Below are positions 12,376-61,325 of a stretch of DNA of 64,000 nt, in pieces. A program made the translations under genes and the position numbers. Numbering within the stretch: position 1 is the first letter of the stretch; each line of letters opens with the position of its first letter. Under the pieces are notes generated by a model, which saw only the letters and a list, made by a program, of their open reading frames with translations, ran no database searches and had not been told where the DNA came from. Origin of the DNA: Pempheris klunzingeri (lineage: Eukaryota; Chordata; Actinopteri; Acropomatiformes; Pempheridae); the NCBI RefSeq assembly GCF_042242105.1, contig NC_092016.1:3767501-3831500 (forward strand). The letters run 5' to 3'.

Positions 12376-16825
<4,450 letters not shown>

Positions 16826-24532: not shown

Positions 24533-26898
24533 TCATTGGCCGTCGGCCATGACGTCATCGGGCCAGAACTCATCCTGCATGTAGTGGTTGGAGTCGGCGA
24601 GGCTCTGCTTGTGCGGAGCGTCTGCGGTCCTCAGCTTGTTCTGCCACTCCTGCTCCCACTCGCCCTCCACCAGCTTGTAGAGGTCGAGGGCGGCCTGGGC
24701 GTCCTCCACCGAGCAGTGACCTCTGCCCCCCACCTGGGCGGGGGAGCACAGACCCTCTAGTTACAGGTTATGTGTGTTATCAAAGGGAAATAATCCTCAG
24801 ATGCTCTCAGACTGTTTGACACCAGCGTTTCAATATGAAAGTTAAATTAATAATAAAATCAATGAAGCCCTGCAGCTGAATCAGGCAGCAAACAGTGACT
24901 TTTAATGAGAGTTAAAACACTAATAACTTCTAATATTTGGTTATACAGGTACGGTGAGCAGGATTTGCACTGAGCAGGTCTTTTCACAGTCAAAATAAAC
25001 TGATCAGTGCTCTCTGGTGGACAAACGTCATGGTGACTCTTTCTAAGTTACATCACATATCTATTTTCTTTTTTTTTCTTCTGTAGGCAAAAAAATAAAC
25101 TTTTTTTTTGCACATTTTTGGGATAATTTAAAAGAAAACCTTATTTTTCATTGATAATAATATCATATATAATAATATCATAATATAGGGATCAACGATT
25201 CACCGAAATGTAAACGTTTGAATATATAAATACATAAAAATCTTTTTTCCAGAGACTTGGTCCCGAAGGTCACATGCACACGTGCCGCCCTACACGCTCC
25301 ATGTGACATATGAGAGTAAGAGTAGAAGAAGAAAACAACGCTGTAGACTTTAAAATACCAGGAGCGAGCTTTGATGCTAAAGAACAAGAGGTGACTTCGC
25401 GTCAAAGTCGAACAGGACGTTGGTTGTGTAGACGTGTTCGGAGTTTAACTGTGTGTAACGTGACGTACTGCCGTGGATACAACATGAGGCAACACCACAC
25501 ATCTGTTCATTTCAGAAAGCACCATGAGACTGAAGCTATCAGCGTGTCAGTCAGGGCGAAGAATCAATAACTGAAATGTTCAAGAGTGCAGCTCTGAACG
25601 AGATTCAACACTGCGACTGACTGGAGATCACACATATCAGAGCCCTAACAAGGACACACATGTTTAACTGAACACACGTCTACAAAATAAACAAAGATAT
25701 AGAGATTTTTATCATTTCTAGTAGAAATAAAATGCATGTGAAGTCTGAAGAGGCGTCAGACACGGACGAACGCTCACCTGTATCCTCCTGTTCAGCAGCT
25801 TGCTGGCCAAGGTTTTGAGGGAGAGGCAGCACTTGCGGGGGAAACCGGCCAAACGGCTGAGGAAACGCGTCAAGCTGGTGTCCCTGACCATGTGACCTGG
25901 AAGGAGCACGTCCAGCACCCTGAAGTCATTGTAGATGGCGTGGCCGATGACCACTTTACCCTTGAGTATACTGAGGATCTGCAGGAGAGAGAAGAGAAAT
26001 AAATACGCCTGTATTCATTGATCATCAGAGTCCTGTACTCTCCAGATCTCTAATGAGAGGTTAGAGGCTAGTTACAGGTGGAAAAACACCTCTGGTGCTC
26101 GTCTGAATCTCACTTCGGGCTGACAGCTGAGAAAATTATGAATGTATGCTCATTGCAGGTGTTCACTCCTGAAGCTACATAAACTCTGAGTGTGCGTCTG
26201 CCTCGACATTCGGTAATGAGCATTTGGTGGTTTGCCCTTCTCACCTCCTCTCTGGCCTGAGCGAAGGGCGTGGCGTCATGCAGGTCGTGTCTCTGGATGC
26301 CGCTCCAGCGAGTCCTGTAGTCGGTGACGGGCTCACACGGTCTGACGTACTTATCATACAATATGTTGCCGTGATAGTCCAGGATGCTGCAGCGCGCCAG
26401 CTCGCTGCAGCGCCCGCCGGGCCCCGTCCCCACCATCTCACAGTCCAACGCCACCACCGTGGTCGGGCACACGCTGAGGCACGGTGAGCTCCGACCGCTG
26501 GCCGGAGGACTCGCCTCGGAGCAGAAACCACTGTCCACCTCCCAGCTGTCTCTGAGGGCCGCGGCTAAGCTGTGGTGGTCTGAAGCTTTGGGCTCAGACA
26601 CACAGAGTCCAGGTTTAGACACGTCGGCGCTCTTGTTTTCAGAGTTGAAAGTGTTTTCACTCTCCTGGCCCGTATCGCTCGATTTTGTTTTTTTGACCAG
26701 TCTATTTGTATCCAGTGGTTCGCTGCTGTTGTCCATTCTTTTCCTCTTCATGTTGGAGGTGATTATGTTCTGCTGGTGCTTCTTCCTGGCTCTTGCACTC
26801 TCCATGGCACGAAGCATCATGGTTTTTTTGCACAAGTACCGGTAATTCCCAAGAAGCCCCCGCGAGGTGACTTTATTCCTTTTCACCAACTCTGCCAT
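24533..26898 (-). CDS. aen: aen: apoptosis-enhancing nuclease (ISG20L1), 3 coding exons
   Basis: Coding exons: 26898-26245, 25978-25778, 24733-24533; GT-AG and in phase, 351 aa (human 325). AEN is a nuclear 3'-5' exonuclease of the DEDDh family that is induced by p53 and promotes DNA fragmentation in apoptosis. The motifs are complete: Exo [12 protein letters not shown] (Asp152, Glu154), Exo [10 protein letters not shown] (Asp236), Exo [13 protein letters not shown] (His291, Asp296). Basic stretches RARKK and MKRKR in the N-terminal tail suit nuclear or nucleolar import. The C-terminal [11 protein letters not shown] matches the human YMEDQYWPDD block, which separates AEN from ISG20. The start at 26898 gives MAELVKRNK. 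An acceptor 33 bases upstream (26931) implies a further non-coding exon. Confidence 0.94.
24734..25777 (-). other. aen intron between coding exons 2 and 3
   Basis: An AT-rich intron of about 1 kb containing T-runs near 25060-25110. An open stretch on the plus strand near 25310-25570 has no recognisable homology. Confidence 0.6.
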
Positions 26899-27452
26899 CA
26901 GCAACCAAAGAAACCGGCCTTGTCGTCATTTCTGAGGAAATAAAACACAAAAAACCCTGAATATCATGAAGAGAAAGGTCAGATTTAGTTTTTGAAACCT
27001 GCACATTTGCTCTGAAAACTGCAGAACTGTGTCCTCGGTCACTGAGGCTGCTGCATAACCTCTAATCTTGCCTGTGTTAGTGCCCACAGAGGAGTTTGGA
27101 GACGTGGTCGTGCAGAAATATCACAGACTTCAGGAGGCAAACGATTGACAGCGAAACATTACAACACGCCAATAACAAGCTGCACAGTCTTGATTTTAAC
27201 TGATGCATTTTCAGAATTGTTACGTTAATGTCCCTTCGCACACATTTCTTTTTTAAAACCAGCATCAGTTCTGATCATAAATATCAAATATTAATGAATT
27301 TTGAAAGTTTTTAACCAAGTTTTTGTCATGATGCAACTCATTTTATGGTCTAAAATACACAATAAACTATTTATTTTCTATATACTTCATGCAAACTGGA
27401 TTATTTTTGGTTTGATTATTGCAGCCTGGTGTATGTGAAATGTCAAATACTC

Positions 27453-29964
27453 ACATTTATGCACCCTTTGCACAAAAAAGTGCTCATCAAACCAATCAAT
27501 CGATTTTCTACTTTCTTTGAACTTTATTACCTGCACCAATCATAGATATCATTTGTGCTGTAAAAAAGAACCTCACCTATTAAATGTAACATTTCCACTT
27601 ATCTATTATGAAAAAAAAAAACCATAACAGCAAGAACAAGATCTATAAATGAACATAACCTGAATAACATAACATAACTACAGCATACAGAACAGTTCAG
27701 GGGACACAGGAGATGCAAAAGGTGTCGTAATGCTTCTTGCAAATATGTTTTCCACATTTTGTGCAGGTGCAGTAGACACGTCTCCGTTTAGGACAGAGCG
27801 CACACTGCTTCCTCACACAGGTGGTGGTGGTGTTAGTGGGGTTGGCCGAGTCTGTGGTGGGGTTACTTGAGCCAGCCTGAGCTTCTGAGGCGAGGCTGGT
27901 GGCCCATGGTGTCCGTGGGAGGTGTTGTCTGCGGGCCATCTGTGGGGTGACCAGTTTCTTCCCCAGCTCCTCCAGGAACAGCCTCCGCCTGTGGGGCTGT
28001 CCCTGATTCCTTTCTGGAAAAATGGCCGTCCACACAGTGTAAGCGTTGAGGGCACTGATGTCCAGCATGTAAAAAAAAATGGCCATGGGCCACCGCTTGG
28101 TCATCCTCCTGCAGCTGTATGTAGAGATCATCTGCAAAACAAAAAAGGACCAGAGACAAAGATGATGAACAATGTTTTTAAATATATAAAGAAATGCTGA
28201 ATAGTGAACATCTCAGACAAGCACATAAATTCTGCAAAACAAAAACAAAACATGTATGTTTTGATTTGCATAAACGTACCTCATCCACGGTATCCACTGC
28301 TCCTTTGCAGCGGTTATAATCAAGTATGATCTTGGGCTCCTTTTTCTCCCCACTGTCGATCTCCGGCTCCCGGTGTTTGGTGCTGAGCAGGATAATGTTT
28401 TTGTTCCGCTTAGGGGCGTAGGAAACCAGGGTGTGAGTTTGAGTGAATGCAAAGATGGAGGAGAAGACCTCTCTGCCTTGTGCCACCTGGAGCCGAGGGG
28501 GAAGCTCTGGACGTTTTTTATGCATCGCGCCAACTATGGTGATCTTCCTTCGGAGCAGCTCCTCTGCCAGCCCGAAGGAGGAAAAAAAACTGCCACATGT
28601 CACAGTCACCCCTCCCAGCCCCTCCGTCATGTCCAACACGACCCTCCGTCCTTGATTTTGTTCTGCCGGCGCACCAGCTTCTTGGCCGGTGTCAACAGAA
28701 GCCCTCCATACATATGATGTTTGTACGTCACAGGAGACCCACATTTTTAAGCCAAAGCGGGTCGTGCGCATGTACTGCCGGAATTCGCAGCGTCCCCGGT
28801 ATGGCACGAGTTGCTCATCCACACAAACGTCCACAGCTGGATTGAACATCCTGGGGAGCCGGGCAATCCACATATCCCAGATTACCCGGATCGCAGCCAG
28901 CTTATCCTTTCCCCGTTGCCGCACTCTGGACTTCCCGTCGTCAAAACGCAGCATTGTGCTGATCACCACAAAAGTTTTGAGAGACATGGTCGCCCGAAAG
29001 ATAGGCCGGCCCGTCTGGTCATCCCACAGGCTGCTGGTTGGTTCGCCGCGGGACCGATAGACGCCAGCCAACAGAAGGAGACCAAAGTAAGCCCGCACGG
29101 TGGTGGCATCAATGTCCTTCCACTCGGGGGCCACCTTTCTCCCGTGCAGGTTGGTATATTCAGTGACAAGCTTCGTGATCTCCGGGGTGATAAATAAATC
29201 AAAACTGTCACTCAGCTCACTGACTCTGGACACGGCATAGCGGGTGGGTCCTGGGATTAGAGTTGTGCCTCGAGGTTTAAACTGGAGCGTCATGTCATTT
29301 GTGGGTTCCCATTGGATCTCTCCGTTTTTGGACTTCCATGACTGGTCTGGTGGCGTCTCCCCTGCCCCAGGTAAGTCGGTGGAGGGTGGGCCGGCCCCGG
29401 GAGGTGCTCATCACCATCTGCATTGCCTGTGTCGGAGTCCAATTCCGAGGTTATGGACTTGTGCTCCATGGGCTCGGTATTGCACTCCGTGATCAAATCA
29501 CGTGCCTCCTCAGTGGTGTCCATCGTGCTCCTCTGTACCGTGCGGCAGCTGCATAAACAAAGTCGAGGTCTGGTTTGGTTCTCGGCGACTGTAACTTTCA
29601 TGTGCAGGAAAAGGTCCTGGTTTCGTTTATTTCAAAGCTGAGCGGGAACCCCTGTGTAGGCGCGTTTTACGTATTTTATAGTAAAAAAATGTCGTGGTGC
29701 TTTGAACGATGGCATAATAACTAAACACGAAATGGAGGATACAGAAACGGTGCCACTTGAAAGCTACCTGAGCTTTTATGCATTCAGTCATAGGGTAATG
29801 CAATGTGCACGCTGTAGACACACACACACACAAACTTAATGCCTCAGAGCTTGTGGAGAGAGGAGGGGGAGGATACAGTGTGAGTGCCCTCTACCACAAA
29901 AAACTGGTATTTTCTTCAATTGCCATATTTGGTAAAAACACGCGTGGGTGCATCAAAGGGTTAA
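27453..29964 (-). mobile_element. piggyBac-family transposon within the aen 5' intron
   Basis: The right end is clear: reading on the minus strand, TTAA (29961-29964) is followed by CCCTTTGATGCACCCACGCG, close in form to ends of Uribo-type piggyBac elements. The left end is poor: TTTATGCACCC at about 27456-27466 may be the partner, but TTAA is missing there. A second candidate, TTAACC at 27311, matches less well. The element carries a transposase gene (next entry) on the strand of aen and lies between aen's coding exons and its likely first exon. Confidence 0.75.
27697..29523 (-). pseudogene. piggyBac (PGBD4-like) transposase, nearly intact but catalytically altered
   Basis: Main exon 29293-28280 (338 codons from the internal Met; the frame continues upstream as EIQWEPTND), then a 148-bp intron with GTACGT donor and TGCAG acceptor, then exon 28131-27697 (144 codons). 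The family cuts and pastes DNA at TTAA using three Asp residues. Asp in CVDEQLVPYRG and in KGAVDTVDE are present, but the expected TCDNFF-type block reads TCGSFF, so one catalytic Asp is Gly. The conserved RRMTKRWPMAIFFYMLDI block spans the exon 2 start. A C-terminal cysteine-rich zinc domain (CALCP, CTKCGKHICKKH, CISC) is intact. An acidic N-terminus starting at ATG 29523 lies in another frame, implying an indel near 29360-29408. It is either a recently dead transposase or a domesticated derivative. Confidence 0.85.
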
Positions 29965-30653
29965 TAACATAAGTTAGTCTGGAAAACGTTTGAGGGCCAT
30001 TACTCAGGGATATCTCATAAGATAAGGGACAACACGTGCTGTTTTCACTTTAAAACGATGTCAAAATTCCTGCAAAATTCAAAATGCTAATTATATTGAT
30101 GGCAAATCCAGCTGCTGTACTTAGACCGCCCGTAAAGCCTGTCTGATAACGTATATAATCCATGCAAGACTACAGTGGAAACCCCAGCAAACTGTCAATC
30201 TTGTATTTTGTTTACAGTGATCTCACATGCCTGCTTCGTCAGCAGGCCGTGTTTGGAAATAGCAACCACTGTGTGACCAAACCACAGTTGTCTACCGCAC
30301 ACAGTTATGTACGAGGTGGTGATTGTTGGTGGTAATAAAGCCGAAATAACCACTGGCCCTTAAAGGTTCTGAAAAGGCGGTAATTTTTTGTTTTAAGTGG
30401 CGCTGAACGTTGTCGGTCGCCAAAACCGTCTAGAGTAGGCGAATATTTCAATGGAGTTCGGCGTTCCGTTCAGGAAAACCATTTAGCATTAGCATTAGCT
30501 AGCTGAGGAGAACCACGTCAACAACACACTAAACATGATTCCTCGACGAAACAAACAATAACGACTAATGTGAGGATATAAATAAGTAGATAACAGACAC
30601 ATTAGAACTACATTTAAAAAAAAGACGTGGCCATTTCCACATCAGTACGTTAC
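29965..30653. other. Rest of the presumed aen 5' intron
   Basis: AT-rich sequence between the right end of the piggyBac element and the candidate aen first exon. I recognise no coding exon or repeat family. Confidence 0.5.
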
Positions 30654-30780
30654 CTCGCATAGCAGCACGTGGACCGTCTGGACAAGCCTGGACAAGTCTT
30701 TTCAGGCCGCCGTCTGATTGGCTCTTTTTCTTCTTCGCTTGTTCTGAGACAGGAAGTGTTCGTCTGTCAAATACCTACAG
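30654..30780 (-). other. aen: Candidate non-coding first exon and promoter of aen
   Basis: On the minus strand TATGCGAG is followed by GTAACG, a plausible donor, giving a low edge at 30654. It could splice to the acceptor at 26931. The upper edge is not defined. The p53-type element at 30680-30699 fits a p53-inducible promoter and supports assignment to aen. Confidence 0.45.
30680..30699. promoter_or_regulatory. Consensus p53 response element (two half-sites, no spacer)
   Basis: GGACAAGCCT is followed directly by GGACAAGTCT. Both decamers match RRRCWWGYYY at every position and the spacer is zero, the form bound best by p53. It lies beside the candidate first exon of aen; mammalian AEN is an established p53 target. 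Function here is inferred. Confidence 0.7.
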
Positions 30781-30799
30781 AGGCGCCGCCTACTGGTTG

Positions 30800-31465
30800 A
30801 ATCCGCTATTACCCAAAAAAATATTCCACAAATGCAGCAATTGACACTTTATTTTCAATTTATTTATTTATATTAACAATTTATTTTCCCCAAATTTGAC
30901 TGAAAATATGATAATCTACTTCTTTAACATGGCTGATTAACTGTTGAAATGATTTATTGATTTAAATGTTTTCTACCATTCTGATATTATGGGTTATGGT
31001 AATTGTCTCTTTGCCTTTTGTCCTAAATTCTGTACTTACAGACCAAAACAAAATTATTTTAATCCAGTTTTTACATCCACATGAACAAATCTGTTTTACA
31101 AGTGCTGAAAACTTAAAACGATGGAATGCCAAATATTTGGAACAACTGAATAGTTAAATTTATTAAAGAGAATTTGATCTTGAATATCTTTAGATTTTGA
31201 GCTTGAATTGAAGAAGACATTTGCAGACTGGTCTATATAATAAATAAAGGGGGAAATATCCCCACAAGATTTTTCAATTAATTGAAATGAGATGGAGAAT
31301 AATACTAGTTTGCAGAGACTTACTTAATACACTCTTGGGAATTACAAGGAAGGTTTCATCTCTCCTGAAAAATAAAAATCAGCAGCAGTTTTATCTGCAA
31401 AGACAGTTTGATAAAAGCATTTAACATTCATGAATGAGAGCGTTTGTTTTGGTTTTGTGGGCCTT
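30800..31465. other. Intergenic DNA between aen and pdia3
   Basis: Short AT-rich interval with no recognised gene. The pdia3 3' UTR begins to its right. Confidence 0.5.

Positions 31466-31971: not shown

Positions 31972-38729
<6,758 letters not shown>

Positions 38730-46239: not shown

Positions 46240-61325
<15,086 letters not shown>

Follow-up and report, generated by a model that had tools for sequence, protein, structure and literature searches.

A perfect zero-spacer p53 consensus element in the likely promoter of a very probable aen gene of Pempheris klunzingeri

The p53 tetramer binds two adjacent decamers without a spacer, and aen occurs in zebrafish p53-response gene lists. In the closest described system, that of human AEN/ISG20L1, the original report places a zero-spacer element, CCACATGCCC-0-GGGCAAGCCC, about 450 bp upstream of the start and describes p53, p63, and p73 at the element by ChIP (PMC2873442). 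AEN is also listed among the 86 direct p53 targets predicted in both mouse and human, and p53 is reported to oppose DREAM at the mammalian gene, according to another paper (PMC6755996). The premise of an earlier note on the DNA studied here, that mammalian AEN is a p53 target, is borne out by these two papers, including a zero-spacer element in the promoter. In Xenopus, aen was upregulated together with tp53 in Neil2 morphants and was termed a direct Tp53 target (PMC6768664). The p53-AEN link itself is known already and is not new; it is also probably old, with support that comes from the Xenopus expression data and not from the fish site at 30680-30699.

Several properties of p53 elements in general, and of fish p53 in particular, bear on how a site in a fish genome should be read. 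The activity of human p53 is highest on CATG cores, followed by CAAG and CTTG, and is weakest on CTAG, while zebrafish p53 showed little discrimination in a yeast reporter panel that included the CAAG-core elements CON3 and MMP2 (PMC4323202). In zebrafish, consensus pairs with spacers of 0-15 bp occur at 2.25 per Mb, 47% of them in repeats or transposable elements, and among 10 such sites all were p53-dependent in reporters and 7 were called bound in embryos (PMC5007497). The zebrafish sites tested there, such as those of traf4a, hspa8, and runx1, are RRRCWWGYYY pairs near genes, identified with the pattern also used for the element described below; aen is not mentioned in the main text of that paper. 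Elements of this kind can turn over or be lost, as is suggested by the ddb2 promoters of zebrafish and cavefish, which were found to have no p53 consensus site where the human promoter has one (PMC7891740). Our literature search, which was conducted mostly at the level of titles, found no p53 element of any fish aen gene.

The window, by which we mean the whole 64-kb stretch of P. klunzingeri DNA that was analyzed, with positions counted from its first letter, contains at 30680-30699 the sequence GGACAAGCCTGGACAAGTCT. As had been claimed in the earlier note, it consists of two adjacent decamers that match RRRCWWGYYY at 20 of 20 positions with a spacer of 0, and with both decamers present and the spacer inside the range of 0-15 bp, its sequence is that of a canonical p53 response element. 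On the strand of aen it reads AGACTTGTCC-AGGCTTGTCC. The element and the repeat that it belongs to are as follows.

30680..30699, no strand assigned: perfect zero-spacer p53 response element, GGACAAGCCT-GGACAAGTCT, by consensus match
30676..30699, no strand assigned: 10-bp tandem repeat making up the p53 element, 2.4 units with one mismatch

No other zero-spacer site in the window has fewer than two mismatches, and the expected number of perfect zero-spacer sites per 64 kb is 0.0034-0.0084 with Markov models of orders 1-5, 0.0038 with uniform bases, and 0 to 0.011 from simulated 12-Mb sequences with four different orders. Uniform bases would give about 40 such sites by chance in the whole 646 Mb. 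In a background sample of 20 stretches of 10 kb from the same 646-Mb genome (200 kb in total, including 2,512 N), neither a perfect RRRCWWGYYY pair at spacers of 0-15 bp nor a zero-spacer site with at most one mismatch was found. Looser p53 sites, with up to 3 mismatches, number 20 in the window against 20.8 expected, and hence show no general enrichment. The two decamers of the element are, however, not independent draws, because both are part of the 10-bp tandem repeat at 30676-30699: they are identical at 9 of 10 positions and lie inside a 24-bp stretch of period 10. Allowing for tandem duplication by means of the tandem-decamer clusters, 78 of which were counted in the 200-kb background and 10 in the window, the expectation would rise, as a rough estimate, to about 0.01-0.02 sites per 64-kb window.

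A wider repeat as the source of the element finds no support within the window, where the 500 bp around it (30400-30899) have no second copy and the other matches extend over 12-23 bp with E values of 0.018 or worse. The promoter DNA also gave no match in a plasmid collection, as expected. A second perfect p53-consensus pair, GAGCATGTTT-4 bp-AAACTAGTCT, is present at 33736-33759 between coding exons of pdia3 and is likely due to chance, so that it could serve as an internal control; with spacers of 0-13 bp pooled, 0.06-0.12 perfect pairs are expected per window from the Markov models.

The gene beside the element lies on the minus strand, and its three coding exons (coding parts 26898-26245, 25978-25778, and 24733-24533) join into an open frame of 351 codons, from the ATG at 26898 to the stop at 24533.

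26245..26931, minus strand: aen exon 2, with acceptor AG at 26932-26933, start codon at 26898-26896, the start of the exonuclease domain, and donor at 26244
25778..25978, minus strand: aen exon 3, 67 codons
24533..24733, minus strand: aen exon 4, the coding end, with TGA at 24535-24533

A profile search found an Exonuclease domain (PF00929) in exon 2 with an E value of 3.1e-7, and a comparison of the joined catalytic exons with PDB chains gave human ISG20L2 (1.9e-58) and ISG20 (6.9e-43), AEN itself being absent among the nine solved-structure matches. The possibility that the gene is ISG20L2 is nevertheless disfavored, since a gene on another contig of the same genome (L003) fits human ISG20L2 better, with 99.5 bits against 88.4 bits for the gene in the window, over 71 residues each. 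Because the protein is an exonuclease of the ISG20 family, the gene on the other contig is closer to ISG20L2, and an rlbp1 exon (13967-14272) is found in the same window, the gene can be called aen with high probability and is separate from the ISG20L2-like gene of the genome, and the identification made in the earlier note very probably holds. Human AEN and RLBP1 lie together in 15q26, and the C-terminal YMxDxxWPDD stretch of the protein presumably resembles human AEN. The genome search that found the gene on the other contig returned four matches from which the window's own exon was missing, and from so incomplete a list a further copy of aen may have escaped elsewhere in the genome. Searches of microbial and viral collections with the aen protein turned up no relative.

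The element is situated 3.8 kb upstream of the aen ATG, on the far side of an intron in which a piggyBac-type transposase frame is found, in a region with the features below, which are listed after the island in their order along the strand of aen, the p53 element standing between the CCAAT box and the E-box.

30201..30850, no strand assigned: CpG-rich island in which the aen promoter and first exon may lie, with a CpG observed/expected ratio of up to 1.28
30750..30757, plus strand: ETS-like motif CAGGAAGT, separated from the element by 50 bp, by motif definition
30715..30723, minus strand: CCAAT box of the NF-Y type, AGCCAATCA, located upstream of the element and separated from it by 15 bp, by motif definition
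30666..30671, no strand assigned: E-box CACGTG, separated from the element by 8 bp
30652..30653, minus strand: candidate splice donor GAG|GTAACG, about 26 bp from the element; a non-coding exon 1 would end at 30654

The CpG observed/expected value of 1.28, reached at 30401-30700, is the third highest among the 300-bp windows ranked, and values of at least 1.28 occur in 0.54% of 1,297 background 300-bp windows with a GC content of at least 0.40. A similar CpG peak, at 38.2-38.7 kb, is found at the 5′ end of pdia3, the start codon of which was read at 38729. On an approximate matrix the candidate donor at 30653 scores 2.8, a moderate value within the top 2.65% of 4,080 minus-strand GT sites, compared with 5.7 and 6.7 for the internal donors of aen and 3.3 for a GT at 30226, and the acceptor before exon 2 at 26932 is good. 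Because the CpG-rich island encloses the element and the CCAAT box and the moderate candidate donor stand on either side of it, a promoter or first-exon place is likely for it. The earlier proposal that the element stands at the likely first exon of aen is supported insofar as its surroundings are promoter-like; the start would be near 30.65-30.8 kb, and the sequence is compatible with a position of the element either within exon 1 or just upstream of that start. Simple patterns for CHR and E2F motifs, i.e., DREAM elements, gave no match in 30250-31000. Should exon 1 be spliced at 30653, a short upstream frame would begin with an ATG at 30660 (30658-30660); joined to exon 2 and read by eye, this frame overlaps the aen start codon and may exert translational control on aen.

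The human AEN/ISG20L1 element and the fish element have in common the gene, as best inferred, the zero spacer, a position that is probably promoter-proximal in the fish as well, and one CAAG core. They differ in that the human element fits the consensus at 18 of 20 positions, whereas the fish element fits at all 20 and has two CAAG cores, and in their distance from the start, which is about 450 bp for the human element, an upstream one, and apparently short for the fish element. Their bases are the same at 13 of 20 positions, against a mean of 11.9 for random consensus sites (P = 0.36). Base identity thus provides no signal of shared ancestry between the two elements, and the antiquity of the p53-AEN link, which the earlier note had read from the fish site, cannot be drawn from a resemblance that 36% of random consensus sites would show. 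Closer in sequence are the human MMP2 element, with 16 of 20 bases the same (chance 7%) and CTTG as its second core, and the artificial CON3 element, with 15 of 20 (chance 20%). Both resemble the fish element in their perfect consensus, zero spacer, and CAAG cores (Table 3 of PMC4323202) but, unlike it, are not elements of aen.

From these features, we consider it probable that the 20-mer acts in the aen promoter as a canonical response element of the p53 family, through which genotoxic stress induces aen. Under such stress a p53 tetramer, or p63 or p73, would occupy the two adjacent decamers, the bound factor would stimulate transcription of aen at the CpG-rich promoter next to the CCAAT box, and the aen nuclease would then take part in cell death or autophagy. 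Stress-induced p53 binding with induction of aen seems most likely because the zebrafish consensus sites tested were all active and mostly bound and zebrafish p53 discriminated little among elements that included CAAG-core ones. Against this reading, three of the ten zebrafish sites tested were not bound and nearly half of the zebrafish consensus sites lie in repeats or transposable elements (PMC5007497), both cores of the fish element are CAAG, which is weaker than CATG for human p53 (PMC4323202), and simple patterns found no CHR or E2F motif in 30250-31000 despite the reported antagonism of p53 towards DREAM at mammalian AEN (PMC6755996). The turnover of p53 elements exemplified by zebrafish and cavefish ddb2 (PMC7891740) and the moderate score of the candidate donor, which is exceeded by that of the GT at 30226, also weigh against it. 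The higher score of that GT, together with a CpG richness that reaches to about 30.2 kb, would suit a variant in which aen starts elsewhere, with its first exon either closer to 30.2 kb or immediately ahead of exon 2, and the element acts as a nearby enhancer. We hold this variant to be unlikely, as the CpG peak, the CCAAT box, and the candidate donor cluster at the site and the 5′ end of pdia3 has a like CpG peak.

Another possibility is that a 10-bp tandem duplication in the promoter matches the degenerate consensus by accident and has no function, and that p53 regulates aen in this fish via another element or not at all. The near identity of the decamers and their place in the period-10 repeat are in keeping with such an accident, as are the abundance of tandem decamer pairs in the background and in the window, the presence of another perfect pair, within pdia3, that has no obvious role, and the frequency of zebrafish consensus pairs, many of which are in repeats (PMC5007497). 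Even with duplication allowed for, however, far less than one site is expected per 64 kb, and the match falls in the promoter-like island of aen, the sole known p53 target among the four genes identified in the window (rlbp1, aen, pdia3, and ckmt1). Chance alone is not favored in view of the low expectations and the empty 200-kb background, and although the tandem-repeat structure weakens this argument, we regard the accident as quite unlikely. It is highly improbable that the element, while real, serves mainly p63 or p73 and not p53 stress induction. On the human ISG20L1 promoter, p63 was present with and without cisplatin and the binding of p73 rose about 15-fold with rapamycin, but more p53 was likewise found on the same region after cisplatin (PMC2873442), and the family members are indistinguishable from sequence. 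With induction by p53 retained as the preferred reading, p63 and p73 may share the fish site, by analogy with the human one.

The tandem-repeat structure speaks for a local origin or reconstruction of the element as much as for its inheritance, and the full site probably arose when a 10-bp half-site was duplicated. A more far-reaching idea, which we hold only tentatively and consider rather doubtful, is that the control of AEN by p53 has been kept across vertebrates while the DNA element has not, a fresh site near the start having arisen by tandem duplication of a half-site and replaced an ancestral upstream site. If that is true, the locus would make visible the birth of a response element with the identity of the target kept. 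If the element is used, direct control of AEN by p53 at the promoter level would extend from mammals and frog to fish. The question raised is whether the element was inherited from a common ancestor or was rebuilt locally with the target gene unchanged, and its 20 bp could be deleted cleanly in an animal with easily scored p53 stress responses.

The neighbors of aen stand side by side on one strand: rlbp1 (13967-14272), aen (24533-26931), pdia3 (32937-33152), and ckmt1 (57115-57513), the last encoding a mitochondrial-type creatine kinase; rlbp1, pdia3, and ckmt1 were recognized by exons. As the human counterparts of rlbp1 and aen are in 15q26 and those of pdia3 and ckmt1 in 15q15, the window unites two blocks found at separate places in human. 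Further peaks of CpG observed/expected at 60801-61300 (up to 1.39) and 58101-58600 (up to 1.16) probably mark more gene starts. The piggyBac-type transposase frame, within what is presumably intron 1 of aen, occupies 27697-29524 on the minus strand, and a profile search assigned 28178-29407 to DDE_Tnp_1_7 (PF13843) with an E value of 2.3e-56. GGGTGC...CAAAGGGTTAA at 29946-29964 and GCACCCTTTG at 27461-27470 may represent the imperfect ends that belong to this transposase frame.
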